This document shows positions 2,500 through 7,771 of a stretch of 64,000 bases of DNA, in pieces. The notes below the pieces were generated by a model, which saw only the letters and a list, made by a program, of their open reading frames with translations, was not told the DNA's origin and did not search any database. This stretch comes from Lachnospiraceae bacterium. GTDB taxonomy: Bacteria; Bacillota; Clostridia; Lachnospirales; Lachnospiraceae. Each line of letters begins with the position of its first letter. Positions within the stretch are counted from its first letter, which is position 1. Location: positions 1-64,000 of the forward strand of contig JAEENO010000041.1 of NCBI GenBank assembly GCA_016283755.1. Reading direction: 5' to 3'. The position numbers and the translations under genes were made by a program.

Positions 2500-3378
2500 T
2501 CATCCCTCTAAAGCATAGAACTTTATTTTTGAAGAATCATTGTCATTTATCGCATCCAAAACGCTTTTAGTATAAATGCGCATTGCGTTTGGCAAAGCTT
2601 GACTCTGCCCATCTATTATTACTCGCTTATCAAGTATCTTCCAAACATAATGCTTCTCATCCTTCTCAAATCTTATAGGCTGCATTTCATATACGAATCT
2701 ATCAACCAATACTCTAAACGGTTCCATAAAATCACATGCAAGGTTAAAATGATTAAACATATTATCATGAAAAATACCTAATTGCGTAAGATAACCATTT
2801 GCGGATATCTCACGATTGAAAGATGAAAGAATCAAACTATACCCATAATTTAAAGCTGCATTAATTGGTATTTCCGCACTTCGAGTAAAATCCAATCCGA
2901 AAAGTGCATTAAAATAAACTTTTGCCGCATGTCCTTCGCGGTTTGTCAAGTCCCCATAATCAACTTGATTAAGATATCCAAAGAGCATATCTGCTTGCTC
3001 ATTTTTACCTAATTCCGATAGAAAATCAGCCTGTTTTCTTATCTTTTCGCTTACTATATCACGCCAGATAGCTGCTTTTACTGTTGAATTCCATGCAAAT
3101 TGGGTTCGTATTTTAGACGAACTATCATGACTTCCATGATGAGGTATTAACTCCGATATCGGATTTCTCTTTGAATCACAGAAAATCACTTTAATTTTCT
3201 TTTCTGATGCAGCCTCAATCAAGAATCCGGTTAATGAAACTGCCGGATTCTCAATTAAAATAACTGCTATCTCATCCATCAAAACTCTCTTTGTTTCATT
3301 ATCATTTCTTACCACAAGATATCCCATCTTATAATCAAGTTTTGATTGAGTGCTTATAATTACTGTTCTCCAACTCAT
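2500..3378 (-). CDS. cas1: Cas1, CRISPR integrase
   Basis: 292 aa. It is the metal-dependent integrase that inserts protospacers at the leader-proximal repeat. The N-terminal beta domain (MSWRTVIISTQSKL) is followed by the alpha-helical catalytic domain, with the Glu in NREGHAAKVYF (near residue 150), the His in GIFHDNMFNHFNL and the acidic residues of CDFMEPFR. All are intact, so the system looks competent for adaptation. The start overlaps the cas9 stop as ATGA. Confidence 0.96.
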   Translation of the reverse strand: MSWRTVIISTQSKLDYKMGYLVVRNDNETKRVLMDEIAVILIENPAVSLTGFLIEAASEKKIKVIFCDSKRNPISELIPHHGSHDSSSKIRTQFAWNSTVKAAIWRDIVSEKIRKQADFLSELGKNEQADMLFGYLNQVDYGDLTNREGHAAKVYFNALFGLDFTRSAEIPINAALNYGYSLILSSFNREISANGYLTQLGIFHDNMFNHFNLACDFMEPFRVLVDRFVYEMQPIRFEKDEKHYVWKILDKRVIIDGQSQALPNAMRIYTKSVLDAINDNDSSKIKFYALEG

Positions 3379-6300
3379 AATAATTCAAACAAATTAATGG
3401 ACTGCTTTTCCCATAATCCTGATGGCGATTGGTCAATAATCCTTACATCCGTATAATACTTTTTCCAATTTGATATAGCCGTGCTAATAGTCATAGCAGC
3501 AGCATTCTTATTACCTCCAATTAAACTAAGGTCACTTCCTCCTGATACTCTTCCTAGTATTTGAATAATTGTTAATAATACATTTGCCTGTTCAACTTCA
3601 GTAAGTTTCATAAACATTTCACGGCCACTCGTCATAACTTCATATGGAGAGTTCGGTCTCTTAGAATAAACGCCTTCTTGAAACTTCTTTTCAAGAATAT
3701 CATATAACTTTACGTTATCTGTTGCTATCACCTTATCGTACTCTGAGTCGAAAACGTAATTTTTATTATTCTGCACTTTTGTAACAAGATTATCCATGCG
3801 TTTAATATAACACTTCCAATAATCATCAAGTGATAATTGAACAATTCCTTGCAACAATAGTTTCATTCCTTTATTAGCAACTCCTGTTATAACAGCTCTA
3901 TACCCATCAAATGATATAACAGTATTTACTTTTAAGGCCCGCATTCCCATTGGAAATACTACTTCATCTACTGTTTTTCCAAGAATGTATTGCAAACGCT
4001 TAATCGCGTACTCTTTTGCGTAGACACTATCAGATAAAAACCTATCTTTATTCATTAGTTCAACTGAAAGTATTATTATTTCTTCCTTTTTACCAACTCT
4101 GTATTTTGTCGGTATATAAAATGCTACCGCAGGCTTATTATATCCACCATATCTTTCAGTATCAGACAGCAATGTAACACCTGCTTTTCTTGGCACTAAA
4201 TCTGTACTTTTTTTCACGAGCATTTGTTTAAAAAATTCTCCTGTCTTCATGGCTGAAAACATGGTAAAATGTGCATTATTTTTCTTTGCAATGGCTATTG
4301 CCTTATCTCGCATTTTTTCGCCATCCCAAATTACTCTATCCCCAACCTTAACCGGATACTTAAATATATTCTCAGTTTTCATACTATATTGCATATCAAC
4401 ATTGAAATACTTTTTAGAAAACTTCATGTTGTAGACATTTCCAGTCACAATATTTAAATATGCATCTACCGCATGATGAAGATCATTAAAGCTTCTCGAT
4501 TTATAAATATCATATACCTGTCTAAATGAACTAACCAATCCGGCTTTTGAATATACTATTTCTGCTTTAGGGTATTTTTCGCCAAGAAGTATACCCAATG
4601 CTTTTGTAGACTGAGATGTTTCTACTAATTGTCTGTTAATAAACCCATACTTTTCTTCATCACTAAATGGTGTCGAACGCGTTAATCTTTTGTATTTTTC
4701 CTCGGTAATAGTTCCGGACTTATACCACCAAGCCCAAATATCCTTCATTTTATTTCTAATTTCAGCACTGATTGGATATACGTCCTGTTTTTTACCGTTC
4801 AACTCTGACAAACATAAAACCTTGTTATTATGAATGCTGTCATCTTTTACATATGACTGCGGATAAATATGATCAATGTCATATCTTTTTGAACCTTGCA
4901 TTAATTCTTCCAACTGAATTGGCTCGTTTGAATATGCGCATCTACCAAACTGCATAAAATATAGGAACAATCTATCCCCTTGTAATCTATTTGTTGCATA
5001 TTCTCCCAATGATTCTAATTGCTTTTTTAACTCACGAACTTCTTCGTTTTTACACGATGAATAAAGCTCTTGTATCTGCTCGAGCCTTGAATTAGTTTTT
5101 TTACCTTTTTTACTTGCATCCTCACCTCTAGTCATCTCGATAAAAATCTTCTCGGGTGTTCCAAAAGCCTTGCAAATATCATTAACAATATCCATTGTCC
5201 TGTATATCGGGCGTCTGACGGCAGTAGAAACATACATATCATCAAGTCTGCTCTCCAAACTCGACTTATGTTCTGTATAATACTCCTTTTGATACTCTTC
5301 AATAATCTCTTTAAATCTATATCTATCAGTTGCAATAATTTCCATCAGATTATCATTCGTGTTCCACAAAGCAGACAAAATAGTTGTTATTTCACCCGTA
5401 TTATACGCGCCTTCAAGTTCCGACAAGAACTTTCGGGAAAGTCTACCGAAATCTTTAAATCTCAAACTACATAAATACTTTCTATCCTCAACAGATATAT
5501 TGGGAAACTCTTTTTCAATCCATTTGGATAATCTGCTCTTGTTTTCCGCATAAGCAGAACGCTCAATTATTCTTTCTGCATCATCTTCAGAAAGCTTCCC
5601 ACTACTTAACATTTTATCTAAGGCTCTTCTTGAACTCAGCGAAGACTTAATTGATACATCAATACCGGTAACAGCTTCATCATTACCTTTATCAAGATAG
5701 CCATTACTAATCAAATAATCTATTATTGCATGCTTTGTCACTCTGTTCTTCTTTTCAAAAAGATCTGTATATAAGCCCTGTTTAACCTCAACCGGAATCT
5801 TTTCGCCATTTATCTTGATATTATTGATTTCATTTAAAACCATAAATTTTTGATAGCATAAAGAGTCCTTCGGTAATACATCTTCACCTGGAAGGTATGT
5901 ACATTTATTAGTCATTCTTCGTATGAAGTTTTCCTCGCTTTTATCAAGGTCAACCATTTTTTCAAAATTCCATGGCATAATCTTTCCCGTCTTTCTCACT
6001 AGCCAAGCCTTATCCGACCTATCATTTAACGGGCCAACAAAATACGGTATTTTGAACTTAAATATACTTACAATTTTTTCTGCGTTAGTTATTCCGTCCA
6101 TATCACTTTCACCTAAAAAAGCAAGATAATTCTCTGCATTTTCAAGAATTCTCTTTAACTCAAATAAGTATACCTGATGAGGTATAACTCTATTATCAGT
6201 ATTCTTTTGCTTTGGTAAAAATGTATTAAGAGCTAATCGCTCCATCATATCATCAAATTCTTTCTTATCCTTCTCTTTTACTTCAACTTGCTTCAAAATA

Positions 6301-7460
6301 CTAATAAGCGCCTTTGAAAAACTTTCTGCACTCGCTCTATTTTTAAGTTCTGCAGCTTTTCCCTTTTCAACATGATAAGTATAAGCAGGATAATTAAATA
6401 AATCCTTCTTTGCATATCTGAATATTTCCGCATATTTACCCGGAATATAATCTCTTACTATTCTCTTTAACAATTCCAAATCTGCTTTATGTTGCTCATA
6501 AATATGGACTTTTGCTCCAGAAATTGTCACTGCGCCATTCAAAATATTATTAAGAATTGCCCAATCATATAAAGAGCGCAAATGTGCTATAAGCTCATAA
6601 TCATCACCAATATTCGATGCTAGTTCAAGATGCTTTTCTTCATCCATTCCCAATGAAACAGAATCAAATTCCTCATATTCTTCTTTTCCAAATAGCTCCT
6701 TTACTTTACAAGTTCCACCTGCAAGCAATCTTATTATGCATACTAAACTAAAAGGAAATTCTTCTGTTATATCTTTTTTAGGCTTTTTACCTCCAAACAT
6801 AGTTTCAATCAATTGTTGTTCCTTGACCTTAACATATGTCTTATCTTTCAACACATTCCCTAATCTAGATAAATCAGGTGCCTCCCACGGAACAGCACAT
6901 CCATTATTACTAAAATACATTATTAAAGCATTATATGACTCTGTTATATCTGAAATTTTCGATATATTATTTTCATCCAAATTATCAAGAAAATGTCCTC
7001 TATGTGCAACTAACCATGCGCATGCCAAATAAACCAATCTAGCATCATGTGGAGCTGGATTATTCATTAACTCAACTATAAGATGATGTATTGTCGGATA
7101 CTCTTTATGATACTGTTTATCAGTATAATTCTTATCATTAAACAGAGTATACTCGTCTTCAGCATCTTCTCTATATTTATAACTTTCGGCCAATCTAACG
7201 AAAAATCGCTCATCCACCTTTGCAATTTCCTTTGCAAAGATTTCCTGAAGTAAACCAACTCGTTGCTTTCTTCGCTCTAATCTTCTCCTTGCAGTTCTAA
7301 AGCTACGCCTTTCTGCATTCGTTTTTCCCGCATCAAATATATGCGCCCCCCATGCAGGCTCTCCATGAAATTTCAACAGATTGTATTGCTCATCAGTAAC
7401 GGCATATCCAACCGAATCTGTACCAACATCCAATCCGAGATAATATTTTACCTTTTTCAT
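3375..7460 (-). CDS. cas9: Cas9, type II-A RNA-guided DNA endonuclease
   Basis: 1361 aa, near the usual length of large II-A Cas9 proteins. RuvC-I is at the N-terminus (YYLGLDVGTDSVGYAV, catalytic Asp11). An Arg-rich bridge helix follows near 52-75 (ERRSFRTARRRLERRKQR), then the long helical recognition lobe, RuvC-II (IFIEMTRGED, Glu near 774), HNH (YDIDHIYPQS, His near 862) and RuvC-III (HHAVDAYLN near 995). RuvC-III keeps the catalytic second His and the Asp. All nuclease residues are present and no frameshift is seen. The start has a GAGGG site seven nt upstream that lies inside the divergent tracrRNA promoter. The PAM cannot be read from the sequence. Confidence 0.98.
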   Translation of the reverse strand: MKKVKYYLGLDVGTDSVGYAVTDEQYNLLKFHGEPAWGAHIFDAGKTNAERRSFRTARRRLERRKQRVGLLQEIFAKEIAKVDERFFVRLAESYKYREDAEDEYTLFNDKNYTDKQYHKEYPTIHHLIVELMNNPAPHDARLVYLACAWLVAHRGHFLDNLDENNISKISDITESYNALIMYFSNNGCAVPWEAPDLSRLGNVLKDKTYVKVKEQQLIETMFGGKKPKKDITEEFPFSLVCIIRLLAGGTCKVKELFGKEEYEEFDSVSLGMDEEKHLELASNIGDDYELIAHLRSLYDWAILNNILNGAVTISGAKVHIYEQHKADLELLKRIVRDYIPGKYAEIFRYAKKDLFNYPAYTYHVEKGKAAELKNRASAESFSKALISILKQVEVKEKDKKEFDDMMERLALNTFLPKQKNTDNRVIPHQVYLFELKRILENAENYLAFLGESDMDGITNAEKIVSIFKFKIPYFVGPLNDRSDKAWLVRKTGKIMPWNFEKMVDLDKSEENFIRRMTNKCTYLPGEDVLPKDSLCYQKFMVLNEINNIKINGEKIPVEVKQGLYTDLFEKKNRVTKHAIIDYLISNGYLDKGNDEAVTGIDVSIKSSLSSRRALDKMLSSGKLSEDDAERIIERSAYAENKSRLSKWIEKEFPNISVEDRKYLCSLRFKDFGRLSRKFLSELEGAYNTGEITTILSALWNTNDNLMEIIATDRYRFKEIIEEYQKEYYTEHKSSLESRLDDMYVSTAVRRPIYRTMDIVNDICKAFGTPEKIFIEMTRGEDASKKGKKTNSRLEQIQELYSSCKNEEVRELKKQLESLGEYATNRLQGDRLFLYFMQFGRCAYSNEPIQLEELMQGSKRYDIDHIYPQSYVKDDSIHNNKVLCLSELNGKKQDVYPISAEIRNKMKDIWAWWYKSGTITEEKYKRLTRSTPFSDEEKYGFINRQLVETSQSTKALGILLGEKYPKAEIVYSKAGLVSSFRQVYDIYKSRSFNDLHHAVDAYLNIVTGNVYNMKFSKKYFNVDMQYSMKTENIFKYPVKVGDRVIWDGEKMRDKAIAIAKKNNAHFTMFSAMKTGEFFKQMLVKKSTDLVPRKAGVTLLSDTERYGGYNKPAVAFYIPTKYRVGKKEEIIILSVELMNKDRFLSDSVYAKEYAIKRLQYILGKTVDEVVFPMGMRALKVNTVISFDGYRAVITGVANKGMKLLLQGIVQLSLDDYWKCYIKRMDNLVTKVQNNKNYVFDSEYDKVIATDNVKLYDILEKKFQEGVYSKRPNSPYEVMTSGREMFMKLTEVEQANVLLTIIQILGRVSGGSDLSLIGGNKNAAAMTISTAISNWKKYYTDVRIIDQSPSGLWEKQSINLFELL

Positions 7461-7461
7461 A

Positions 7462-7490
7462 TTGACACCCTCACTTTGTTATATTATTAT
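7462..7490 (+). promoter_or_regulatory. tracrRNA promoter overlapping the cas9 5' region
   Basis: TTGACA (7462-7467), 17 nt, then TATTAT (7485-7490), predicting a start at 7497-7498. The -35 begins two bases upstream of the cas9 ATG, and the spacer covers the cas9 Shine-Dalgarno (plus-strand CCCTC at 7468-7472). On minus, a TATAAT (7491-7486) nearly coincides with the plus-strand -10 but has no good -35. RNA polymerase at one start would probably block the other. Confidence 0.8.
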
Positions 7491-7497
7491 ATTAGTA

Positions 7498-7612
7498 AGT
7501 TCACAGTCCCCTGTGAATTTGTACTGCGAGTTCAAATAAAAGTAAACTCAATCCGCCGACTTGTTCGGCTGCACAGTGTGTGCTTTAAGACTTCTTTAGA
7601 AGTCTTTTTTTT
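7498..7612 (+). ncRNA. tracrRNA
   Basis: The anti-repeat (7505-7536) pairs with the CRISPR repeat over 18 bp at the distal end, 5 bp (ACTGC) and a lower stem (TTCAAAT), leaving the GA/GAGT internal bulge characteristic of II-A duplexes. Downstream come a nexus-like segment, a GCCGA/TCGGC hairpin, a GCACA/TGTGC hairpin and an intrinsic terminator AAGACTTCT-TT-AGAAGTCTT with a T-run (7587-7612). It is divergent from cas9. The 5' end can also fold on itself: TTCACAG-TCCC-CTGTGAA (7500-7517), which would hide part of the anti-repeat until crRNA binds. Confidence 0.92.
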
Positions 7613-7771
7613 GTCCAAAAACTATATCATATATATAGTCCATTAGATAGGACAACCAAAATGATAAAATAAAATTTTATGCGCCATTCTTATAATCAAT
7701 ATTATCAGATACAGCAAAATCTTCAATACATAATGGTTGATTTCAGAAAATTTGAAAACGATAAAATCTTC

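Follow-up and report, generated by a model that had tools for sequence, protein, structure and literature searches.

The type II-A locus and its tracrRNA gene

The window, i.e. the whole stretch of 64,000 nucleotides analysed here (positions 1 to 64,000 of contig JAEENO010000041.1 from a Lachnospiraceae bacterium), carries on its minus strand a complete type II-A CRISPR-Cas operon. It comprises cas9 (3375-7460, 1361 aa; TIGR01865, 871 bits against a cut-off of 100), cas1 (2500-3378; TIGR03639, 307 bits), cas2 (2175-2498; TIGR01573, 61 bits) and the subtype II-A marker csn2 (1510-2178; TIGR01866, 143.5 bits). An array with a matching repeat lies near the operon on the same strand (1287-1373) and consists of the repeat GTTTGAGAGCAGTGCAAATTCACAGGGGACTTAAAC, which is present in five copies in a relative (L031), one spacer and a degenerate terminal repeat of which only the first 20 nt are retained. 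The sole spacer, CATGCTGTTGTGTAATGTTTCATCAGAATG on the crRNA strand (1308-1337), matched nothing in a phage collection. A plus-strand open reading frame of 196 aa without an NCBIfam family (724-1314) extends into the terminal repeat, so that its final codons consist of repeat sequence. Genes for RNase J and RNase III are present in the genome. Viral contigs scanned with the Cas9 alignment yielded no relatives.

Directly upstream of cas9, on the opposite (plus) strand, lies a tracrRNA gene, recognised by a promoter, an anti-repeat complementary to the array repeat, a nexus-like stem and an intrinsic terminator. The promoter, TTGACA-17-TATTAT (7462-7490; hexamers at 7462-7467 and 7485-7490), matches the consensus at 11 of 12 positions. 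The primary transcript is predicted to run from about 7497, 7 nt past the -10 element, to 7614, the end of the terminator (7587-7614, composed of 7587-7606 and a T run). A direct repeat (D1) and cofolding place the anti-repeat at 7505-7537: positions 7505-7527 pair with the upper repeat, followed by a bulge and the lower stem. The whole tracrRNA folds more stably than its shuffles (z = -4.12). Rfam returned no tracrRNA model match for 7490-7626, the best hit being tsr26 at 23.9 bits against a cut-off of 141. As in S. pyogenes, whose tracrRNA occurs as the 89-nt tracr-S and the 171-nt tracr-L, the system is of type II-A, the tracrRNA gene is near cas9 and the anti-repeat lies towards the 5' side of the RNA.

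A hairpin at the 5' end of the tracrRNA

The 5' end of the predicted primary tracrRNA is a 10-bp hairpin, AAGUUCACAG-UCCC-CUGUGAAUUU (7497-7520). Its 5' arm (AAGTTCACAG, 7497-7506) pairs with a 3' arm (CTGTGAATTT, 7511-7520) across a TCCC loop (7507-7510), with both the loop and the 3' arm being part of the anti-repeat. The first-pass annotation had described this element as a 7-bp hairpin; the hairpin itself stands but its length does not, and ten rather than seven anti-repeat bases are thus hidden. If transcription begins 1-2 nt earlier, the stem grows to 11-12 bp. In the predicted fold of the free tracrRNA, bases of the 5' arm are unpaired with a probability near 0, while GTACTGC (7521-7527), a candidate toehold for the crRNA, is exposed (unpaired probability 0.90-0.93). 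That the 5' arm is not plain anti-repeat sequence, as had been proposed, is borne out by folding: the tracrRNA segment reaches -8.8 kcal/mol, the repeat complement GTTTAAGTCCCCTGTGAATTTGCACTGC -1.4 kcal/mol. The predicted repeat:tracrRNA duplex (-48.2 kcal/mol) displaces the hairpin. This and the covariation described below agree with the initial view that a 5' hairpin takes up anti-repeat bases and has to be opened before the crRNA can pair. In S. pyogenes, by contrast with the strong hairpin at the predicted +1 seen here, the 5' fold of the 89-nt tracrRNA is weak (-2.6); a literature search for published tracrRNA sequences found none.

Conservation of the hairpin was examined among Cas9 relatives drawn from 194 related genomes, 397 genomes of the family, 399 of the phylum and 80 named loci. 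The arrays of about 60 loci supplied repeat sequences, and anti-repeats were then located. A rule-based search, combining the core motif with the best upstream -35/-10 pair and setting the tracrRNA start 7 nt past the -10 without consulting any fold, gave 68 starts, 61 of them with a long anti-repeat. In 56 of these 61 tracrRNAs (92%), pairing in the minimum-energy fold begins at +1 or +2 relative to the predicted start, compared with 19% in dinucleotide shuffles; placing the start anywhere from 5 to 8 nt after the -10 still leaves 46-56 of the 61 pairing from +1/+2. We then swapped 5' flanks among 19 representatives of clusters with dissimilar anti-repeats. The mean energy rose from -4.15 kcal/mol with their own flanks to -1.14 kcal/mol with swapped ones, and not one of 20,000 permutations reached the energy of the own arms (p about 5e-5). 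Across 38 loci, folding favours the tracrRNA segment over the complement of its own repeat by an average of 4.5 kcal/mol (means of -4.98 and -0.45, respectively; Wilcoxon p 8e-8).

Within the clade of the window, the stem register was anchored by the CCC loop and not by folding. In this register 95% of the cells of the stem pair, against 86.9% after shuffling (0/500 shuffles reached this value), and ten cells, spread over five pairs, have changed on both sides (0/500 shuffles). Sliding the register lowers pairing to 32-50%. Cell counts are not independent events, the sequences being related, and the swap among dissimilar clusters is the better guard against this. Covariation of the 5' arm in relatives, which the first-pass annotation had named as a check on its proposal, is present.

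Could the hairpin be due to chance, or be a by-product of the repeat sequence? CRISPR repeats may contain partial dyads, and the complement of the S. pyogenes repeat folds at -5.3. In the loci studied here, however, the plain repeat complement does not fold (the mean of -0.45 given above), and chance is contradicted by both the flank-swap and the covariation tests. Together, these three lines of evidence refute such an origin for the set as a whole, and we give it practically no weight.

On a Cas9 tree of 82 rows, the hairpin is found in nearly all parts. Loop length differs among loci (3 to about 16 nt), and in most of them the distance from the end of the masked segment to the core AGTTCAAAT that follows varies little (6-10 nt). 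Stems are weak (-0.3 to -1.1 kcal/mol) in four loci (L015, L062, L098 and L119). Seven loci with short anti-repeats of about 12-15 nt before the core (L007, L010, L011, L013, L014, L126 and L136) have neither the distal anti-repeat nor the 5' arm. They fall on at least two branches of the tree; a short anti-repeat without a 5' arm characterises the members read of a supported 13-row group and, separately, L126 and L136. In 17 loci, tracrRNA and cas9 are on the same strand, 111-344 nt apart, and most of these have the same kind of hairpin, in the majority UUUAGUA-CCA-UACUAAA with both arms deviating from the repeat complement. This hairpin was read in L049, L059, L060, L063, L105, L110 and others, where the tracrRNA lies upstream of cas9. 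Among Bacilli, a search for plasmid-borne Cas9 proteins recovered Listeria, Nicoliella and a cloning vector among others; Listeria alone was informative and has a possible short UGUUA/UAACA stem.

Eight loci (L005, L033, L037, L070, L076, L083, L092 and L102) show a recurrent A-to-G change: 11-12 nt ahead of the core, their anti-repeats have G where the repeat complement has A. This change converts an A-U pair with the crRNA to G-U, and the hairpin gains a G-C pair. In a reversion test, deviations of the anti-repeat from the repeat strengthened the hairpin in 24 cases and weakened it in 4, a ratio similar to that of random substitutions (832 to 204), and the test thus adds nothing.

The same hairpin, built from different letters and kept in dozens of relatives, is almost certainly functional. 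At the level of sequence comparison, it is shown to be maintained by compensatory change across Clostridial II-A systems.

An inverted repeat located at a promoter might serve as a DNA operator instead, and it would fold in the cas9 leader as well, so that selection could have acted on an antisense RNA and not on the tracrRNA. The composition of the stem bears on this choice. In the loop-anchored stem we counted 20 G-U pairs (24.3 expected when arms are permuted) and a single A-C cell (5.8 expected); of 120 cells, 111 can pair on the tracrRNA strand and 92 on the antisense strand. G-U pairs thus far outnumber A-C cells which, with a loop as variable as described above, argues that selection has been on the tracrRNA and not on a DNA operator or the cas9 leader. 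The sequence also varies among relatives. An operator or leader structure is hence very unlikely, and the pairing pattern shows the tracrRNA strand to be the one on which the hairpin acts.

Promoter overlap and cas9 transcription

The tracrRNA promoter abuts the cas9 start codon, which is another difference from S. pyogenes. As first annotated, TTGACA starts two bases from the A (7460, minus strand) of the cas9 ATG, the spacer (7468-7484) contains the complement of the cas9 ribosome-binding site region GTGAGGG (7468-7476, minus strand), and a minus-strand TATAAT (7491-7486) overlaps the tracrRNA -10 element. Of 50 divergent loci, 18 have the tracrRNA -35 exactly 2 nt from the cas9 ATG and 25 have it at 1-5 nt. 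This state occurs on several branches of the Cas9 tree, which requires at least four changes. These counts support the notion that a tracrRNA -35 adjoining the cas9 start is a fixed architecture.

The first-pass annotation went further and suggested that the two transcripts could exclude each other through shared promoter DNA. This part is not supported. The hexamer 17 nt from the minus-strand TATAAT is ACAGGG, i.e. there is no matching -35, and the only minus-strand site that scores at the overlap is TTCACA-17-TAATAT (9/12). A score of about 8 at the overlap is reached only in the window, in its closest relative (L002) and in L015, and the minus-strand -10 is conserved only within the genus. 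Over 24 loci, the cas9 promoter score over the tracrRNA -10 has a mean of 4.5, which is low in absolute terms though above shuffles. A bidirectional promoter would be expected to have conserved elements for both directions about one -10, and such a pattern was not observed.

Candidate cas9 promoters are instead enriched beyond the tracrRNA terminator, where a cas9-strand site with a score of 8 or more is present in 12 of 24 loci of this layout, against 2.2 expected (z = 6.5). In the window, the best site on the cas9 strand is TTGTCC-18-TATGAT (7655-7626, score 9.1-9.2). Its predicted start is near 7619, and the resulting leader of about 159 nt would be antisense to all of the tracrRNA. L002 is without a strong site beyond the terminator (4.4), and the promoter at 7655-7626 therefore stays a candidate.

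Transcriptional coupling, in which a -10 used in both directions, or a cas9 leader overlapping the tracrRNA in antisense, makes one transcript exclude the other, would draw on several of these observations: the 2-nt offset fixed in 18 loci, the antisense overlap implied by promoters beyond the terminator, and two precedents. E. coli has many bidirectional promoters whose two directions use one -10 (Warman et al. 2021; PMC12825309), and an antisense RNA over the 3' end of tracrRNA was observed in S. agalactiae (PMC4448216). The window resembles the former in that its minus-strand TATAAT overlaps the tracrRNA -10, and differs in that this TATAAT has no good -35, is not conserved and is accompanied by better cas9 promoter candidates upstream. 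The genus-limited -10 and the low scores at the overlap speak against coupling. Coupling also leaves the hairpin unexplained: loci with tracrRNA and cas9 on one strand have kept the hairpin, and it is thus independent of promoter overlap. Overall, we regard coupling as an improbable account of the element.

Possible roles of the 5' hairpin

Given a stem that starts no more than about a base from the tracrRNA start predicted from the promoter consensus, the reading that we favour, with a probability of roughly one half, is that the 5'-terminal stem-loop is a removable cap which would block decay from the 5' end and be displaced by the crRNA. In this model, the first transcribed bases would pair with the distal anti-repeat, forming the 5'-terminal stem-loop of the primary tracrRNA and leaving at most about one unpaired 5' base as long as the RNA is free. 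The RppH of B. subtilis acts only where two or more 5' bases are unpaired, Bacillus RNAs are stabilised by 5' hairpins, and a 5'-terminal stem within about a base of the RNA end blocks RppH as well as the entry of RNase J (PMC3997798). With so few unpaired bases, removal of the 5' pyrophosphate and attack by RNase J would be blocked until a guide is available. The repeat of a pre-crRNA would pair first with the exposed proximal anti-repeat (7521-7527 and the lower stem) and then displace the 5' arm, resulting in a long duplex. RNase III would cut this duplex, and arm and loop would be lost from the mature tracrRNA. With the distal anti-repeat occupied, pairing to RNAs other than repeats may be disfavoured as well. 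In S. pyogenes, RNase III co-processing removes the 5' part of tracrRNA, the 89- and 171-nt primary forms yielding a 75-nt form (PMC3936727), and the same is proposed here. The proposed cap is like the 5' stabilising stem-loops of E. coli ompA and papA and of Bacillus mRNAs, with a stem that would begin within about a base of the 5' end. It differs from them in that one of its arms is the functional anti-repeat; crRNA binding would therefore open the hairpin and RNase III would remove it. Against the cap, stability and masking predict nearly identical sequence patterns, stems are weak in the four loci named above and in the 89-nt S. pyogenes tracrRNA, and some relatives manage without a hairpin.

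Alternatively, the hairpin might be an autoinhibitory switch that mainly masks the distal anti-repeat and is opened only by true repeats entering at the proximal anti-repeat. Such a switch would limit noncanonical crRNAs and premature loading of Cas9. It fits the near-constant end point of the masked segment relative to the core and the exposure of the proximal stretch, as well as the finding in C. jejuni that noncanonical crRNAs form when tracrRNA pairs with cellular RNAs (PMC8224270). Masking alone, however, does not need a stem that starts at +1, as almost all of the long-anti-repeat tracrRNAs have. We consider a mainly autoinhibitory role possible but less likely, and prefer the cap since a stem that starts at the first base is what a block of the 5' end needs. 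Cap and masking may both apply.

A third alternative is a natural single guide of the kind formed by S. pyogenes tracr-L (PMC11417352), in which the 5' arm would mimic the crRNA repeat and sequence upstream of it would guide Cas9 to the cas promoter. The 5' arm does equal part of the repeat (TTCACAG) and, as in tracr-L, a 5' segment pairs intramolecularly with the anti-repeat. But the arm starts at the predicted +1, which leaves no guide 5' of it, and it pairs in another register, with the distal anti-repeat and not with the guide-adjacent lower stem. A single guide of the tracr-L type was thus rejected, and we hold this role to be extremely unlikely.

More broadly, and more speculatively, the tracrRNAs of Clostridial II-A systems with long anti-repeats might be made in a closed, crRNA-gated form. 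The 5' hairpin would shut the distal anti-repeat and protect the RNA, it would open only by invasion of a repeat, and its destruction by RNase III would make the passage from free precursor to guide-loaded RNA a one-way switch. In addition, cas9 output could be coupled to the tracrRNA level through a cas9 leader that is antisense along the full tracrRNA.

tracrRNA and 5' stabilising hairpins are each already known. A conserved hairpin with the anti-repeat as one of its arms was not found in the literature searched; an earlier mention in comparative tracrRNA papers is possible, and we claim no priority. Single-guide designs often trim the 5' side of the tracrRNA or rewrite the anti-repeat, and either change would break the fold of the hairpin.

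To our knowledge, accounts of tracrRNA usually deal with the crRNA-bound RNA alone. That most of the sampled II-A tracrRNAs with long anti-repeats have a covarying 5' hairpin indicates that selection acts on the free tracrRNA precursor, before a guide is bound, and makes two questions testable: by what means the RNA persists while free, and how pairing with wrong partners is avoided.
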